Shown here: positions 3,301 to 38,427 of the stretch, piece after piece
Layout of the letters: each line of letters starts with the position of its first letter
How positions within the stretch are numbered: position 1 is the first letter of the stretch
Virus record (IMG/VR): IMGVR_UViG_3300035034_001858
Location: 1-42,948 of that record
Strand: one strand, 5' to 3'
DNA: 42,948 bases
DNA from: a virus
Notes under the pieces: generated by a model
The model's database searches: none
Seen by the model: the letters and a program-made list of their open reading frames with translations, nothing else
What the model was told of the DNA's origin: nothing
Translations under genes and position numbers: made by a program

Positions 3301-3930
3301 CAGTTCCGTGATGCGACGCTGATTTCTGATTATGAGTGGGAAGTCTCCTATCTACGCAGAGGCTTCCGTGGCACGGAGTGGGCGATCAACACCCACAACA
3401 TCCGCCCGACTGTCATCGTCCTCGACCAGGCTGCAGTGGAATCCATGCCTATCGACTATTCGGACGTCGGGACGGCGATCTCGTACAGGGCTGTCTCCAA
3501 AGATCAATATCAGGATCAGGCGACAGAGGAAGTCTTCACGATGGAAGGGAATGCCATCCGCCCGTGGGCTCCTTCTGATCTGAGCGCAGAGCTGGACGGA
3601 TCGGATATCGATGTCTCATGGCTCCGGAGAGAGCGCCTGTACACAGAAGACTGGTTGGTGAGTACCACGGGAACTGAAATCCCTGATAGTGAGCCGACAG
3701 AGGAATACAATGTGTACGTCCTCTCGGAAGCCCATACCGGCTCGGATGCACCTACATCATACATCCGGAAGACGACCGTTACCTCGGAGAGCTGGACGTA
3801 CTCGGCAGCGGATCAGTCAACAGACGGGTTCGATCCAAATACAGACACACTCCATCTCGCGATCTGCAAGGTGTCCTCCCGGATCGGGGACGGATTCCCA
3901 GCGGTCATGAATGTCGATTTAACGGCCTAG
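391..3930 (+). CDS. Tail-tip / host-specificity protein (phage-tail_3-like)
   Basis: A 1179-aa protein that starts with GTG right after the previous stop, with AGAGGA seven bases upstream. The N-terminus (small-residue-rich helix, then a VIPRVYGSGRVP stretch at about residues 40-55) and the long beta-rich body resemble the large central tail proteins of alphaproteobacterial siphophages and gene transfer agents, which form the tail tip and contact the receptor. A region with YLRRGFRGTEWA near residue 1000 and a fibronectin-III-like C-terminal part (about 1060-1179) fit this class. There are no membrane segments. Its place between the NlpC/P60 peptidase and the tail fibre matches the usual order. 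The assignment rests on size, order and sequence character. Confidence 0.75.
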   Translation: MSFLIPLAISTAANFLIGQSQTTKTEGTRLAIDNQTTSRYGEVIPRVYGSGRVPAKIVVSSGVREIKSTRNYRPSKKSGSVEETTYSYVVSLAAVVSHPKEKMLRIWVNNKLAYDVTRNNSSGYVGGEDGVSFEEEGRLGAPIRFYDGSADQLPDPKIEQIVEGITGVEGSCPAFRGVAMVVFDELDVTLFGGRIPKIEVEVSDGDAEIASYVTFDHDGENVAETETELFQGVSKKRREIIKVANVGSTPYVMRINYTTQETFNRTPLQDFDFTTPSRTPDNFTPITCDDDYILGSLDTGGGLAMSLVDIDTGVEVARTTGIDTPFRAEPFTVEVSGQATERYWIVVDTDTDIYILHRRPEDWASNPIADTRARQQQYTHIAIGPMVESKRYIYLLSEDDDQSVMRIHECPISSSGTIDAHIQVQDIEDVTPAPEEVIYSESDKCLVYWFEDEGVPHMRRFTPQVLVDETSHDNFVETEPPSEKQQAIYDKYYAGGKPYSTVSNHDKGWSFHFNAAMPTGMRYGTIKSGEVQWISDQILWTVRIYDGKVTLTDLDLIDEDLEHEDDSDQFYDSRYGVLVTTTPNLGLTSIFTGRLDRSAISLDQLILQLCLETGLTEDQIDVTELEEDVVYGYISSTETTPKTIIENLMTAYNFIGREIDGKLVFSKKNSDPVRTVTEDDLINVSDDSEKGIQRFTRTRKSERDLPMKVELTYYDLDRNFLEGNQSSKRPVFPVPAIYSRSSQNHNWPMVMIADDAKKQCDRLLYTQSAEREQKKFAFMPKHMDLDPGDVINVQMNDGTVYLERIESFDIGHAFNSELETVAVYPPTFVSNSKGAVGDGVPTQTLAEAIDSYLFMMDIPLLAVVDEPVGSTYIPVYVGVGADRDSWSYAQVQRSVDKGESYSSWLLQNVDIPWGRMETELPSPPHGPFVVDDENVIRVKFRTSDVTLTTITDTEFFAGTSNIILVDDELIQFRDATLISDYEWEVSYLRRGFRGTEWAINTHNIRPTVIVLDQAAVESMPIDYSDVGTAISYRAVSKDQYQDQATEEVFTMEGNAIRPWAPSDLSAELDGSDIDVSWLRRERLYTEDWLVSTTGTEIPDSEPTEEYNVYVLSEAHTGSDAPTSYIRKTTVTSESWTYSAADQSTDGFDPNTDTLHLAICKVSSRIGDGFPAVMNVDLTA

Positions 3931-7323: not shown

Positions 7324-7381
7324 CTAAGTGTACCTCTTCCTGCCGCTAACATGGGTTAACAGGGCAGAAAAGGAAGAGCTG

Positions 7382-7687
7382 ATGGCGAAGAAGGGGAAGC
7401 GGGTCGTAGAGATCACGCCACAATACAGACAGGTTCTCATGGACCTGGCGGGACCGATTGATCCCGTTCCACCCACGCTTTCCGAGCGGCTGGATTTCAT
7501 GGAAGTGGATCAGGTCGAATACTTCACGGAAACACGGCAGGCACTGGCAACGTCGCTGGCGAGAAAGCAGAAAGACGGTTCCATCGATCCGGACAAACAG
7601 TTCCAGATGACCAATATCGATGTGGCTGTCAAAACCGACACGATCAATACTGTCGAAACCGTTACTCGCGTCGAACGAATTGCGTAA
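7382..7687 (+). CDS. Hypothetical protein after the lysis cassette
   Basis: A 101-aa protein starting MAKKGKRVVEIT, preceded by GGAAG six bases upstream. An in-frame GTG at 7328 would add 18 residues but has no good ribosome binding site. No family was recognised. It is soluble, with a basic N-terminus and a C-terminus rich in Thr/Val (about 75-101). It is the last gene before the terminator at 7722-7750, so it probably belongs to the tail/lysis transcript. Confidence 0.55.
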   Translation: MAKKGKRVVEITPQYRQVLMDLAGPIDPVPPTLSERLDFMEVDQVEYFTETRQALATSLARKQKDGSIDPDKQFQMTNIDVAVKTDTINTVETVTRVERIA

Positions 7688-13237: not shown

Positions 13238-14476
13238 ATGACCCGATACAACTACATCCCGACCGAGCGCAAAGCCATCAAGGCCTTCACTGGCGACATG
13301 CCGATTGAGCCACAGGCGATGGAGCAGCTTCGCAACATCGCGTCGATGCCCTTCATTCACAAGCACGTCGCGGTCATGCCAGACGTCCACCTTGGCAAAG
13401 GCGCGACGGTCGGCTCCGTGATCGCCACCAAGGGCGTGATCGTCCCGGCAGCGGTCGGCGTCGATCTCGGTTGCGGCATGATGGCCGTACAGACGAATCT
13501 CAATGCTGACATCCTGCCTGACAATCTGTTCTCGATCCGATCTGACATCGAGGCTGCCGTCCCGCATGGACGCACGAACAATGGCAATGTGAAGACCGAC
13601 AAGGGAGCCTGGAATACATATCTCAGCATGCCCGCAGGGCACCGTGGACGTTCCATGGGACTTGCGGAGCGGTACTTCGGCATCATCGAGAAACACCCGA
13701 AGATCGAACATCAGGCGATCCACCAGCACATGGGCACGCTTGGCGGCGGCAATCACTTCGTCGAACTCTGTCTTGATGAAGACGACATGCTGTGGGTGAT
13801 GCTGCACTCAGGATCGCGTGGTCCGGGTAACAAGATCGGTTCCTACTTCATCGAGAAGGCGAAGGAGGAGATGCGCCGGTATCACGTGGACAAGTTCCTT
13901 CCGGATCAGGACCTCTCCTATCTCGTCGAGAAAACAGAAATCTTCGATGACTATGTCGAGGCCTTGTCATGGGCACAGGACTTCGCTGCGGAGAACCGGA
14001 GGGCGATGATGGATGCGACGCTGCAGGCGCTGCAGGATCACAATGACATTCCTCCATTCCGGATCACGGGCATGGCGGTGAACTGTCACCACAATTATGC
14101 GCAGAAAGAGAACCATTACGGCGAGAATATCTGGATCACCCGCAAGGGTGCCGTCCGGGCTCGCAAAGGTGATCTGGGGATCATTCCCGGTTCCATGGGC
14201 GCGAAGTCCTTCATCGTCGAAGGACTGGGAAATCAGGATTCATTCTGTTCGTGCTCGCACGGAGCAGGGCGGGTCATGAGCCGGACTGAAGCGAAACGAC
14301 GCATCAGCCTGGAAGAGCATGTCAAGGCCACAGAAGGTATCGAGTGCCGCAAGGATGCAGACGTCATCGACGAAAGCCCTGCGGCCTACAAGGATATCGA
14401 CGCGGTCATGGCGGCGCAGGATGAACTGGTCAAGATCAGATACACCCTGCGTCAGATCGTCAACATCAAAGGGTAG
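13238..14476 (+). CDS. rtcB: RtcB RNA ligase
   Basis: A 412-aa RtcB-family protein, essentially full length. It has VAVMPDVHLGKG (about residues 44-55), the metal site AVGVDLGCGM (Asp76, Cys79), GGGNHFVEL (about 170), LHSGSRGPG, and the guanylylation site CSHGAGRVMSRTEAKR with nucleophile His341. RtcB uses GTP and Mn2+ to join a 3'-phosphate or 2',3'-cyclic phosphate RNA end to a 5'-OH end. In phages it can repair tRNAs cut by host anticodon nucleases. No archease gene is next to it. The start follows two bases after the previous stop. The HAD phosphatase and exoribonuclease-like genes upstream make an RNA repair operon likely. Confidence 0.95.
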   Translation: MTRYNYIPTERKAIKAFTGDMPIEPQAMEQLRNIASMPFIHKHVAVMPDVHLGKGATVGSVIATKGVIVPAAVGVDLGCGMMAVQTNLNADILPDNLFSIRSDIEAAVPHGRTNNGNVKTDKGAWNTYLSMPAGHRGRSMGLAERYFGIIEKHPKIEHQAIHQHMGTLGGGNHFVELCLDEDDMLWVMLHSGSRGPGNKIGSYFIEKAKEEMRRYHVDKFLPDQDLSYLVEKTEIFDDYVEALSWAQDFAAENRRAMMDATLQALQDHNDIPPFRITGMAVNCHHNYAQKENHYGENIWITRKGAVRARKGDLGIIPGSMGAKSFIVEGLGNQDSFCSCSHGAGRVMSRTEAKRRISLEEHVKATEGIECRKDADVIDESPAAYKDIDAVMAAQDELVKIRYTLRQIVNIKG

Positions 14477-21264: not shown

Positions 21265-21466
21265 CTGCCATTCTGCGGATAAAGGTGTCCACGGTACTCT
21301 GACTGGTCCGCCTCCTTTTCTTGAAGACCTTGTTTGAGAGCATGCCACTCTCCCACAAGTGCCTCACATATCGTTCGCTCACATCGACCATCCCCCACTC
21401 ATGGAAGCGGGCGACGACGCCGTCTAAATCCAATACCGGATCGATTTCCTTATTCGCCTTCTGCAT
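21254..21466 (-). CDS. xis: Excisionase-like winged HTH protein
   Basis: A 70-aa basic protein. The segment DGVVARFHEWGMVDVSERYVRHLWESG followed by KVFKKRRRTSQSTVDTFIRRM resembles small MerR-like/excisionase winged helices (recognition helix about residues 27-38, wing with KKRRR). It lies between the integrase and the attP site, convergent with int, the usual place for a recombination directionality factor. TGGAAA is the only upstream ribosome-site candidate; in-frame starts at 21490 and 21514 exist. The excisionase role is inferred from position and fold. Confidence 0.6.
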   Translation of the reverse strand: MQKANKEIDPVLDLDGVVARFHEWGMVDVSERYVRHLWESGMLSNKVFKKRRRTSQSTVDTFIRRMAATK

Positions 21467-21531: not shown

Positions 21532-21576
21532 GGTCTACCTGTAGACCACCAACCGGTGTAGACCGGGTTGTAGACG
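21532..21576 (+). repeat. TGTAGACC arm-type repeats, left of attP core
   Basis: TGTAGACC at 21540-21547 and 21557-21564, TGTAGACG at 21569-21576, and an inverted copy GGTCTACC at 21532-21539. The spacing is irregular, as in integrase arm-site clusters. With the right-hand pair they bracket the tRNA-like core. Confidence 0.65.
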
Positions 21577-21672
21577 GCTCGTGTTGGGTTGAAATGTCAT
21601 CCAGGACAGAAGAATGTTAGGAAGACCTAACTCCCAAAACTCTCTAGTTCGTTGTTTTTATTGGGATTTTGT

Positions 21673-21719
21673 TGGCGCACCCAGTAGGATTCGAACCTAC
21701 GGCCTCTGCCTTCGGAGGG
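21673..21719 (-). other. attP: attP core: 3' half of a tRNA-Arg(CCG)-like gene
   Basis: Read on the minus strand, the segment runs from CTCCGAA (anticodon loop with anticodon CCG) through GGCAG, a variable region, a perfect T arm (GTAGG TTCGAAT CCTAC) and the 3' acceptor strand to TGCGCCA. No D arm or 5' acceptor strand is present, so this is not a functional tRNA gene. Such 3' fragments are how phages restore a host tRNA after integrating into it. Boundaries are approximate. The surrounding stretch 21467-21900 holds no other gene that I can support. Confidence 0.8.
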
Positions 21720-21801
21720 GCGGTTCCGAAAAAGTCTAAAGCCCCTTAAATCATTGAAAAATAAGGAAAATATGTCTCTAGAAATTGTTACAGCTCTGTA
21801 A

Positions 21802-21820
21802 TGTAGACCATTTGTAGACC
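21802..21820 (+). repeat. TGTAGACC arm-type repeats, right of attP core
   Basis: Two direct copies of TGTAGACC at 21802-21809 and 21813-21820, 11 bases apart and in the same orientation as the left cluster. They lie about 85 bp from the attP core. Confidence 0.65.
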
Positions 21821-21900: not shown

Positions 21901-22578
21901 TCAGCTGCCGACCCAGCGGACCACCTTTCCGAGGATGTGCGTCTCGTCCAGGAACAGTGTGTCGTCGATCATGAGATCGCTGTTCTTGACCGTGACCCGG
22001 CTCCGGCCATCCTTTGGAGCCACCTTGCGCATGATCGCCACAGCAGGTTCGCCTTCTGAGAACGCATACAAGTACGGCTCAGGGGCCATTGACGGTTCGT
22101 CCATGGTTGGATCGAAGAAAACCCAATCGATACTCCCGATAGAGCACTGGCCTTGCTGGTGGTTCAAGGCCATGAGGTCGTTCAAATCCGATGCGACATC
22201 TTGAAAATACTCAGGAACAATATTGGCTATACCAACGGTAGATAGTTCCCCATTATCGTCAAAGATGACTTTAGTGACAGGCTGGAGTCTGGAAGACTGG
22301 CTGTCGTCCCCTCCGAGTCCTGAGAACAACCAGATGGGGTCCACGCCCGTGATCTGGGCGATGGCGTAAATCTGGTCGATATTTGGTTGGGTTTCATTGC
22401 GCTCCCAGACACCAATAGTGATCCGAGACGTCTTGGTTTCCTTCTGACGACTCAGGGCCTCAGACAAGTCCTCTTGAGTGAGGTTCTTCTCCTTCCGGGC
22501 ATCTCGTATTCGATCACCCAGTTTCGCTATTGCGTCTGCGTAAACGGATTTATTGCGCCGTTCCGTATCCGCTACCAT
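21901..22578 (-). CDS. CI-like repressor (HTH + S24 peptidase-like)
   Basis: A 225-aa protein. Residues about 20-85 are an HTH_3 domain (LGDRIRDARKEKNLTQEDLSEAL ... GVWERNETQP). After a linker, residues about 140-225 form an S24/LexA-like domain with EPSMAPE (candidate nucleophile Ser163) and RVTVKNSD (candidate Lys198), ending in LGKVVRWVG. Such repressors maintain lysogeny and are inactivated through RecA-stimulated self-cleavage. The residue pair before Ser-Met-x-Pro is unusual (normally Gly-Asp/Asn), and I see no clear Ala-Gly cleavage site, so inducibility is uncertain. AAAGGA precedes the ATG. A promoter candidate lies about 100 bp upstream. Confidence 0.85.
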   Translation of the reverse strand: MVADTERRNKSVYADAIAKLGDRIRDARKEKNLTQEDLSEALSRQKETKTSRITIGVWERNETQPNIDQIYAIAQITGVDPIWLFSGLGGDDSQSSRLQPVTKVIFDDNGELSTVGIANIVPEYFQDVASDLNDLMALNHQQGQCSIGSIDWVFFDPTMDEPSMAPEPYLYAFSEGEPAVAIMRKVAPKDGRSRVTVKNSDLMIDDTLFLDETHILGKVVRWVGS

Positions 22579-22714: not shown

Positions 22715-23938
22715 CTATTGGAGAATTGCCAAGAACTCAGACGCCCCTCCGATAAGTTCTCCTTGCTCCCCTGTGTCGGTTAGAAAGTGGATACGCGGCC
22801 AAGTGAGTGTTTGTTCCGGCGATCTTTCGTATTCTCCAAAATCCCTCACGGAGAAGGGGACCTTGTGAGAAACAGCAAGAGATTTCGCATAGGCACACCA
22901 TGGGCAATCCGGCTTCGTATAGATCACAACAGGATGGCGAGTAGCAGAGTTTTCGTCAGAGTCAAATTCTTCGAAAGCTGTAGCCCAATCTACAGGAATG
23001 CCCTTGCCATACTCCGTCGAACGCTGCTCGAAGAAGTTGGCATGCGTAGGCGCGGACATGATCCAGTCCAGCCAATCGAACGGATTTTCCTTGATCTCGT
23101 AATTCGGCTTGAGTCCGAGTTGCATGAGACGGCAGTCCGCGATGTACCTGACATAGGTTTTGACGTCTTCCGGAGTCATCCCCTCGATACCTCCGACGCC
23201 GAATGCGAGGTCAATGAAAGCGTCTTCCAGTTCGACCATATCGCGGCAGGCCTGGTAGATCATGCCTTTGAACTTGTCGGTCCACAGGTGAGGGTTTTCC
23301 TCGATTACCGTGCGGAACAAGCGGATCATTGATTCGACGTGCAGGTTTTCGTCCCGGATTGACCACTCAACAATGGTGGCCATACCTTTCATTTTTCCAA
23401 GGCGCTGGAAGTTCATCAGGATCGCAAATGTCGAGAAGAGCTGCAGTCCTTCCCCGAACGCCGAGAAGATCGCCAGATCAAGCGCAGCAGACCGTTCCTT
23501 CGACATACCACGGGTATGTTCCTTGAACATGTACTCGTGCTTGTCTGCCATCTCCTTGTAGTCCCGGAAGGCAACATATTCCTCCTCCGGCAGACCTAGC
23601 GTGTCGATCAGCTGCGAATAGGAGTGCATATGGTTGGCTTCGGCGGCTGCGAAAGCGCACAGCATCATGCGGAGTTCCGGTTTCTGGAACATCGGCATGT
23701 ACTTCGTCACATAGCCTTCCGAGATGTCCGTGTCGGCCTGAGTGAAGAACCGGAAGAGTTGTGTCAGGAGCGTGCGTTCGGCGTCTGTCAGGCGTCCGTT
23801 CCAATCCTTGACGTCTTCGGCAAGGGGGACTTCAGACGGCAGCCAGTGCATGTTCTGCTGAAGGTCGTAGGCGTCGAAGGCCCATTGATAGTCGAATGGT
23901 TTGTAGTTGGGTCGGCTTTCAAAAATCGGTGATGTCAT
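22715..23938 (-). CDS. nrdB: Class I ribonucleotide reductase small subunit fused to glutaredoxin
   Basis: A 407-aa fusion. Residues 1-320 are the R2 ferritin-like domain with iron ligands Glu100 and His103, the radical Tyr107 (EANHMHSY) and Glu197/His200 (DENLH). Residues about 334-407 are a glutaredoxin domain with CPWC at 345-348 (VVIYTKPDCPWCAYAK). It generates the tyrosyl radical used by NrdA to make dNDPs. The fused glutaredoxin probably re-reduces NrdA through its C-terminal cysteines. The ATG overlaps the nrdA stop (TAATG), so the two are translated together. The fused domain replaces the usual free NrdB tail that docks on NrdA. Confidence 0.95.
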   Translation of the reverse strand: MTSPIFESRPNYKPFDYQWAFDAYDLQQNMHWLPSEVPLAEDVKDWNGRLTDAERTLLTQLFRFFTQADTDISEGYVTKYMPMFQKPELRMMLCAFAAAEANHMHSYSQLIDTLGLPEEEYVAFRDYKEMADKHEYMFKEHTRGMSKERSAALDLAIFSAFGEGLQLFSTFAILMNFQRLGKMKGMATIVEWSIRDENLHVESMIRLFRTVIEENPHLWTDKFKGMIYQACRDMVELEDAFIDLAFGVGGIEGMTPEDVKTYVRYIADCRLMQLGLKPNYEIKENPFDWLDWIMSAPTHANFFEQRSTEYGKGIPVDWATAFEEFDSDENSATRHPVVIYTKPDCPWCAYAKSLAVSHKVPFSVRDFGEYERSPEQTLTWPRIHFLTDTGEQGELIGGASEFLAILQ

Positions 23939-36457: not shown

Positions 36458-36775
36458 TTATGCTCCATCTTTGAGATATCGTGTGATCTGGATCGCCCCG
36501 TCATCGAACTTCTTCCGCATTCCGTTCGTGTGGAACAAACCTGGGACGGAGGATCGTTGGCAAAGGGCCGGGCCATAGTCGAACCTCCATGACAGGTCGT
36601 CCGACTTGATCACCGTTACGACAATTCCATTCTCCAGTTGGACGCTCGTTGTCCATGAGCGCCGCCTTGCTTCGGGGATATGAGTGACAAGCGCATCAAC
36701 GACAATCCGACTGTAATGCCGGGCTCTGTCCAAGGACGCTTTCACCGTGTCCGGAAGGCCTTCGAACTCCTTCAT
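36458..36775 (-). CDS. Hypothetical protein
   Basis: A 105-aa protein starting MKEFEGLPDTVKASL with GGAGG eight bases upstream. Helical N-terminus, beta-rich middle (QLENGIVVTVIKSDDLSWRF). The ATG overlaps the stop of the large metallophosphoesterase gene. No family recognised. Confidence 0.6.
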   Translation of the reverse strand: MKEFEGLPDTVKASLDRARHYSRIVVDALVTHIPEARRRSWTTSVQLENGIVVTVIKSDDLSWRFDYGPALCQRSSVPGLFHTNGMRKKFDDGAIQITRYLKDGA

Positions 36776-38427
36776 CCGACTGCCCTCCAATCAGGTCCGT
36801 CTCGTGTGACGAGGGTCCGGCGTCCATTGTCATAGGAGATGATCTCGGTCTGGGACCAACCGGATGCACCCTTGTTATAGCCTTGATCCAGTAGGCCTTC
36901 GAGGCCCGACGCATAGACCCCATCGCGGATGTAGGGACTGTGGACGTGTCCGATATTGAGCTTCGGCCCCATGCGGGCGAAGGCGGTCGGGGATGGGCGT
37001 CCGCCGTTTGCCCCAATGTGTCCGTGCATCGCACATTGGATGCCGGTAGTGTGATCTCCAAGGATCATGAAGCTGTCGTCTTCCCGAAGGAATGTGCAGT
37101 CGAGACGACCTGGCTGAGGACACAGATGCTGCATCGCCCATTCGAAGATCGAGAAGTCGTGATCTTCCCGGTTCAGTGCCTGATAGACTTCGTACTGGCT
37201 CTGCAGGAAGAACAGGGCGTTGACCGGGTCATTCCGGTAATCGTTCGTGCGCAGCCATTTGAGGTAGGCCAGATCGTGATTTGATTCGACGATCACGCTT
37301 TCGGTATCCATCCGCGTCGTCTTGAAGAGGAAGGTCGCGGCCTTTCGAAGTGCGTCCTCCACACTGTCGCTTCCTTGCGCGAACATTCTGAACCGGAAGT
37401 GCGGGTCATTGATGTTGTGGTGATTGCGCGGGGAGAAGTCGGACGTGTCGTGGAAGAACTGGAATTGAGGCCGGAGAACGTCCAGCATGGACCCGGATTT
37501 CTGGCTCACTTTCCAGTTCCGCATATCGGTCTCTTTGCCGTGTTCATCGAACTCAGGGACGATCCCCCAGCATGTCTCGTATGAGACCGGGTCCATCTTC
37601 TCGATGTGAATATCGCCCCAGTTCACGGCATGGACACGGTGGCCATCAGTGACGACTCCGTCTGTCACCTTCTTTGTCAGGTCCTGGAAGTTCCCCTGAC
37701 CGTCTGCGAGCAGGTGCCGGGTGAAGCATTTTCCGTTCGCGTCGATCTCGACAAGGAGTGCGCCGATGACGTGATGGAACTGGGCTTTGAGACCGGCTTT
37801 CTTCGCGACATAGTTCGGAGGCGTCACACAACCTGTCGTCATGATCTGCTTGGCACGTTGGTGCTTCGGCGTAGGCACGCTTTCGAGCGCAATCTTCGGA
37901 TGCGGAATGATCCCGTCCATGTGCCGGGTGTAGGTGTCGAGGCCTGACAGCGGGCGGACGGCGGTCGGCAGGATGTTCATTTCCCCGCAGAAGGCGATCC
38001 GATTGTCGATCTCCATTCGAGCCTGCATCAGGTAGGAGGCGATCTTCGGATCGTATATACCGGCTTCCTTGGAGTGGTCTTCGAACAGGCCCTTCTGGTA
38101 GGTGAACCCTGCGATGTGGATCGAGGCGTTCTCGGACTTTCCGTAGGCTTCGAGATTCTTCAGGAAGTTCTGGCTCCGGGAATCCAGAAACGTGTTGTCC
38201 TGGGCGGAGCTGAAGATGAACCGCTGCACGCCTTTCTTCGGACGGGGCTCCACGAGCGGGGCACGGATTGCCCGCTCTTTGCGGATCGCTTCCTGCGCCT
38301 GCCAGACCCGGTATTGGAGCGTTGATCGCGGTACGCCGAGTTTGCGGGCAGCGGCTCTCTGTCCACCTGCCTGTTTGACGTAATTCAGAAGTTCGGTGTC
38401 GGAATAATTTCCAAGCTTGTCATTCAC
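36772..38427 (-). CDS. HTH-metallophosphoesterase fusion
   Basis: A 551-aa protein. Residues about 9-45 (SDTELLNYVKQAGGQRAAARKLGVPRSTLQYRV) form a Fis-like helix-turn-helix. The rest carries calcineurin-type phosphoesterase motifs: WGDIHIEK (about 270), ESNHD (about 380), an upstream FHDT region, and GHVHSP (about 500). It resembles large phage proteins related to T5 A1 that combine DNA binding and a metallophosphatase core, so a nuclease or phosphatase acting on DNA is plausible. It starts with GTG, with AGGAAAGGAAA upstream. It overlaps the methyltransferase stop. Confidence 0.7.
   Translation of the reverse strand: MNDKLGNYSDTELLNYVKQAGGQRAAARKLGVPRSTLQYRVWQAQEAIRKERAIRAPLVEPRPKKGVQRFIFSSAQDNTFLDSRSQNFLKNLEAYGKSENASIHIAGFTYQKGLFEDHSKEAGIYDPKIASYLMQARMEIDNRIAFCGEMNILPTAVRPLSGLDTYTRHMDGIIPHPKIALESVPTPKHQRAKQIMTTGCVTPPNYVAKKAGLKAQFHHVIGALLVEIDANGKCFTRHLLADGQGNFQDLTKKVTDGVVTDGHRVHAVNWGDIHIEKMDPVSYETCWGIVPEFDEHGKETDMRNWKVSQKSGSMLDVLRPQFQFFHDTSDFSPRNHHNINDPHFRFRMFAQGSDSVEDALRKAATFLFKTTRMDTESVIVESNHDLAYLKWLRTNDYRNDPVNALFFLQSQYEVYQALNREDHDFSIFEWAMQHLCPQPGRLDCTFLREDDSFMILGDHTTGIQCAMHGHIGANGGRPSPTAFARMGPKLNIGHVHSPYIRDGVYASGLEGLLDQGYNKGASGWSQTEIISYDNGRRTLVTRDGPDWRAVG

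Follow-up and report, generated by a model that had tools for sequence, protein, structure and literature searches.

The window analyzed here, a linear IMG/VR contig of 42,948 bp, carries a tyrosine integrase gene, a small convergent reading frame in the position of an excisionase gene, a 47-bp portion of a tRNA gene with short repeats on either side, and a CI-like repressor gene (Table 1). The integrase and a DNA ligase gene lie to the left of the tRNA portion, with the repressor and ribonucleotide reductase genes to its right. The conserved catalytic residues of the integrase (R239, H342, R345, H368, and Y378) follow the R..HxxR..H..Y pattern. In an AlphaFold2 model (mean pLDDT 77), the N-terminal domain is predicted to adopt the beta-beta-beta-alpha fold of arm-binding domains (strands at residues 16-20, 28-33, and 42-47, helix at 50-68), followed by a core-binding domain and then the catalytic domain, and Foldseek matches this model to the integrases of Tn1549 (E=6e-12) and lambda (E=3e-8). 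The predicted arm-type domain, the catalytic residues, and the two-sided arm repeats support the view that the protein is a lambda-type (heterobivalent) integrase. Lambda Int has the same combination of arm-binding-type fold, core-binding domain, and catalytic domain, and its arm sites likewise flank the core; unlike in the window, however, the lambda core is not a tRNA gene, and the arm words differ. The nearest relatives of the integrase, found in phages, plasmids, and viral contigs, are about 24-37% identical, with none close.

The sequence-only reading had placed the core between xis and the repressor. The repressor half of that statement stands, while the putative excisionase is named for its position, with neither a family match nor a fold match. 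This small basic protein, whose start may be an internal ATG near 21466, shows weak pairwise similarity (E=0.004) to an xis-like protein of the related contig G001, which itself matches HTH_17/excisionase models below the cut-off.

Table 1. Features of the integration region and a supergroup marker gene in the window.
Feature	Coordinates	Strand	Basis or remark
Tyrosine integrase, 394 aa	20080..21264	+	PF00589 E=4e-25
Putative excisionase, small basic protein, 86 aa	21254..21514	-	Position and weak pairwise match; convergent with the integrase gene
Imperfect inverted arm-like copy (GGTCTACC)	21532..21539	-	Differs from the motif at one position; adjoins left copy 1
Putative arm-type site, left copy 1 (TGTAGACC)	21540..21547	+	Motif scan
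Putative arm-type site, left copy 2 (TGTAGACC)	21557..21564	+	Motif scan
Putative arm-type site, left copy 3 (TGTAGACG)	21569..21576	+	Motif scan
Predicted attP core: tRNA-Arg(CCG) from the CCA end back to the anticodon loop	21673..21719	-	Comparison with host tRNAs
Anticodon loop TTCGGAG, predicted 7-bp overlap for strand exchange	21711..21717	.	Exchange point inferred; host identity ends just beyond
Putative arm-type site, right copy 1 (TGTAGACC)	21802..21809	+	Motif scan
Putative arm-type site, right copy 2 (TGTAGACC)	21813..21820	+	11 bp after right copy 1; doublet recurs beside other integrases
CI-like repressor (HTH_3/HTH_19)	21901..22578	-	Domain matches
T5 A1-like DNA transfer protein	36772..38427	-	phrog_1745 E=2e-172; 48% to phiCbK-like phages

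The tRNA core and its probable hosts

Read on the minus strand, the 47-bp block runs from the anticodon loop CTCCGAA (anticodon CCG) through the variable region, T arm, and acceptor strand to the CCA end. ARAGORN identifies host tRNAs with a nearly identical block as tRNA-Arg(CCG), and the coordinates of the block are exactly those of the sequence-only reading, which also noted the T arm and the CCA end. No tRNA 5′ half accompanies the block, zero tRNA genes are called by ARAGORN in the 42.9-kb record alone, and a search against Rfam returned one sub-threshold chance match and nothing else. When the block is joined to a host 5′ half, the hybrid is called as a complete tRNA-Arg(CCG), and the phage copy is thus long enough to rebuild the gene. 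In a comparison with three Rhodobacteraceae genes, identity to the host is lost at 21720, beside the anticodon loop, where an exchange of strands within that loop would put the break. At six other alphaproteobacterial loci, the same tRNA 3′ block is followed by foreign DNA from exactly the base equivalent to 21720, with an integrase-like match within the locus in three of the six (L020, L023, and L060). These loci, broken at the same base, mark other integrated elements at tRNA-Arg(CCG); the shared breakpoint supports the view that this gene is a used integration site at which strands would be exchanged in the anticodon loop.

The sequence-only reading had suggested looking for host tRNA-Arg(CCG) genes identical to the core and for prophages with this integrase at that gene. 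Neither was recovered: no exact 46-bp match to the core occurs in 84,980 species (GTDB), none to the core turned up elsewhere in IMG/VR, and the host genomes searched yielded no related prophage at tRNA-Arg(CCG). A search by DNA polymerase likewise returned no prophage in 394 Rhodobacteraceae or in 385 Alphaproteobacteria, and the one match from a search with the T5 A1 protein (G320) was set aside as distant and non-syntenic. A degenerate core pattern matches 100 loci, nearly all in Alphaproteobacteria and mostly in Rhodobacteraceae or their neighbors. The best matches, at 46/47, are in Litorivita pollutaquae, Rhodobacteraceae GH2-2, and a Thioclava MAG, where the single differing base is in all three cases the discriminator position. 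The insertion site had been expected to help identify the host; with no exact core match and no related prophage at the gene, it narrows the probable host to Rhodobacteraceae-like bacteria, at about the family level.

Arm-type repeats in the window and beside other integrases

The word TGTAGAC[C/G] occurs three times to the left of the core and twice to the right, always in direct orientation. The five direct copies agree with the sequence-only reading, while the inverted copy that it also listed proved imperfect. The nearest arm lies about 96 bp from the core on the left and about 83 bp on the right, in keeping with the ~100 and ~85 bp first given. Arm-type sites are usually laid out in this way, as direct repeats at steps of ~11 bp on both sides of a core. 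In the whole window, the word matches eight times against a shuffle mean of 1.55, with none of 100 shuffles reaching eight, and the number of 7- and 8-mers common to both sides of the core was reached in none of 500 shuffles. The cluster of the arm 7-mer is the densest of the window, and a cluster equal to it arose somewhere in one of 40 simulated windows, so that by itself it is no more than moderately rare; what convinces is that the copies flank the tRNA fragment left and right.

Conservation of the arm word among relatives, which would have been expected from the sequence-only reading, did not hold: the modules of the relatives are not flanked by TGTAGACC and have at best weak candidate arm repeats, and the word recurs instead beside integrases of unrelated phages. 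Since the relatives lacked TGTAGACC, we scanned the 2.9 million viral contigs of IMG/VR for the right-arm doublet TGTAGACCNNNTGTAGACC. The pattern was found in 22 stretches, about as many as expected by chance if the collection holds tens of billions of bases (its estimated size), and these collapse to about 11 independent units once homologous groups are merged by eye. In five units (L252, L256, L258, L268, and L271) the doublet lies outside coding sequence, no more than about 450 bp from a tyrosine integrase, an outcome with a binomial probability of about 1e-4 under an assumed 5% per unit and a grouping that was not blind. The placement of the doublet is not random. Four of these integrases, when aligned to that of the window, are 18-22% identical to it, and among the integrases that adjoin doublets some differ in the Pfam arm domain that they match. 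One of the units, L268, and the stretch L270 come from the two end regions of a single 41-kb contig, with a doublet in each, as would be expected of a prophage.

The strongest case among these loci is L252, in which an array directly after the integrase gene repeats the whole anatomy of the window around another tRNA fragment. To the left of this fragment lie TGTTGACC at 3474 and TGTAGACC at 3486, the tRNA 3′ fragment begins at 3580, and to the right TGTAGACC occurs twice more (3665 and 3676) before an inverted AGTCTACA at 3693. Three similar-looking stretches (L254, L265, and L266) were excluded from the integrase-adjacent count because there the TGTAGACC doublet falls within the coding sequence of the integrase, at or close to the segment for its arm-binding domain, and the contigs look homologous. 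A seemingly marine phage group (L257 at 7380-7450, L251, L255, L259, L260, L262, L263, L269, and L272) has TGTAGACC arrays with 11-bp steps and inverted copies, located immediately behind a primase/helicase gene, with the terminase gene a few genes further on; no integrase was found near these arrays in the stretch read.

We consider it a tentative proposal, at somewhat below even odds, that TGTAGACC at 11-bp steps is an arm word shared by very divergent tyrosine integrases and that, in addition, a branch of the T5-A1/phiCbK supergroup is temperate. If such a shared word exists, arm specificity would have been conserved or repeatedly re-evolved while core specificity changed. The titles and abstracts listed in literature searches, mostly of non-subscription papers, held no report of this word in an attP or of its sharing across divergent integrases. 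The attP layout as such is already known from published sites, and the shared arm word is the part that a specialist might not expect.

Phage relatives and known attachment sites

The A1-like DNA transfer protein and a phiCbK-like DNA polymerase place the phage in the T5-A1/phiCbK-like supergroup, which is usually regarded as lytic. Among the larger proteins checked, we found neither a terminase nor a capsid protein, and the record is therefore probably a phage fragment. Its ribonucleotide reductase is closest to those of pelagiphages and Citromicrobium phage RXM, and the small subunit (22715-23938) has a C-terminal glutaredoxin-like domain. The window also encodes an RtcB RNA ligase (13238-14476) with 63% identity to that of Sphingobium phage Lacusarx, although no tRNA gene is called in the window.

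Including the window, four supergroup members have a tRNA copy beside a tyrosine recombinase. In G007, whose DNA polymerase is 50% identical to that of the window, a repressor is followed by a 3′ fragment of tRNA-Lys(CTT) that stops at the anticodon loop and then by an integrase, with a short xis-like reading frame, judged by eye, seemingly between repressor and core. G001 (IMG/VR 3300020152_000001, 132.7 kb; DNA polymerase 47% identical) carries in a row a repressor, an xis-like gene, a complete tRNA-Arg(CCG), and an integrase. It thereby resembles the window in its related replication genes, its integrase (24% identity over 369 aa), its repressor and xis-like gene, and the tRNA-Arg(CCG) within the module, but it differs in that the tRNA gene is complete and lies between xis and int, and in its other arm-like repeats. 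The closest relative by DNA polymerase (G006, 75%) is a contig that ends just past the ribonucleotide reductase genes, before the att region, and two distant contigs with a tRNA-Leu beside an integrase (G002 and G003) were rejected as relatives.

The fourth case is Lacusarx (KY629563), described as having two recombinases and no switch gene, with a negative lysogeny test and no mention of an attP (PMC5648845). Like the window, it belongs to the T5-A1 supergroup and holds a 47-bp tRNA-Arg(CCG) 3′ fragment, at 86819-86865 (L004:301-347) and ~125 bp from the recombinase LAV_00128; unlike the window, its recombinase is only marginally similar and its flanking repeats are different and statistically weak. 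The Lacusarx core has no match at up to one mismatch in 382 Sphingomonadaceae. Our analysis points to an attP-like site, absent from the original description, in a phage reported as virulent. From G001, G007, and Lacusarx, we conclude that tRNA copies beside integrases recur in the supergroup, with differing targets and differing, mostly weak flanking repeats.

Outside the supergroup, the layout has a close parallel in the attP of mycobacteriophage Pixie (cluster K3), where a 47-bp core is accompanied by five arm sites in direct orientation and a single inverted one (PMC3203893). Here too, a 47-bp tRNA common core adjoins a tyrosine integrase and the inverted copy is on the left; however, the tRNA is tRNA-Lys, the direct sites are split two left and three right, and the phage is otherwise unrelated; the likeness described here is one of layout. 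Another known arrangement, tRNA-dependent lysogeny, combines a short core of ~10 bp, from which the tRNA is not rebuilt, with a phage tRNA of the same isotype (PMC10865867). We rejected it for the window because the 47-bp core rebuilds the tRNA; the 42.9-kb record also has no tRNA gene. The complete tRNA-Arg(CCG) of G001 (L127:8975-9051) is a candidate for tRNA-dependent lysogeny or for an unusual full-length attP.

Proposed integration by arm and core binding, and its alternatives

The core, the arm repeats, and the adjoining lambda-type integrase and repressor all fit the reading of 21532-21820 as the attP of a temperate phage that would integrate at tRNA-Arg(CCG) through arm and core binding, to which we assign a probability of roughly 0.92. 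The sequence shows the identity of the core, its breakpoint, the arm repeats, and the family and predicted fold of the integrase; binding, strand exchange, excision, and life style are inferred, as follows. The N-terminal domain of the integrase would bind the three left and two right TGTAGACC arm sites, while its core-binding and catalytic domains would bind the anticodon-stem sequences of the core. Strands would then be swapped across the 7-bp anticodon loop of the host gene, and since the phage would provide a replacement 3′ half, the host tRNA would be functional at one junction. The small protein encoded upstream of the core probably directs excision. The core-plus-arm layout of the sequence-only reading is supported by the integrase, the repressor, the two-sided repeats, and the L252 parallel, of which the last, together with the doublet beside other integrases, counts as independent evidence. 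Against the attP reading stand the lack of an exact attB and of a prophage, the absence of TGTAGACC from the relatives' modules, and the marine arrays with no integrase detected. An attP here would give a concrete insertion site to a large phage of a supergroup known mostly as lytic and would link that phage to Rhodobacteraceae-like hosts, and a short arm word that recurs beside very different integrases, as the scan suggests, could be of use in finding attP sites where phage genomes lack annotation.

The part of this reading most exposed to an alternative is the role of the repeats. The core could be an attP while the TGTAGACC copies serve as repressor operators or excisionase sites, as the directly adjoining repressor and xis-like genes would allow; the inverted copy adjoins left copy 1 to form a near-palindrome of the kind common in operators, and in the marine group the arrays occur with no integrase found nearby. 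We nonetheless regard this as unlikely, given that the doublet adjoins integrases in otherwise unrelated phages, that in L252 the word flanks a tRNA fragment on either side, and that two-sided direct repeats at ~11-bp steps are the usual layout of arms.

Less probable still is that the 47-bp block is the decayed remnant of a phage-carried tRNA with no role in integration. Related large phages do carry many tRNA genes (about two dozen in Lacusarx), and the integration module of G001 holds a complete tRNA-Arg(CCG), but the block in the window is not decayed, differing from host genes by one change, ends at the anticodon loop, and is accompanied by flanking arm repeats and an integrase. We give the least weight of all to a reading of the block as a prophage junction (attL or attR). 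Such junctions do account for other contigs that share this tRNA block, whereas in the window phage genes lie on both sides with no tRNA 5′ half, a gene content that already contradicts a junction.
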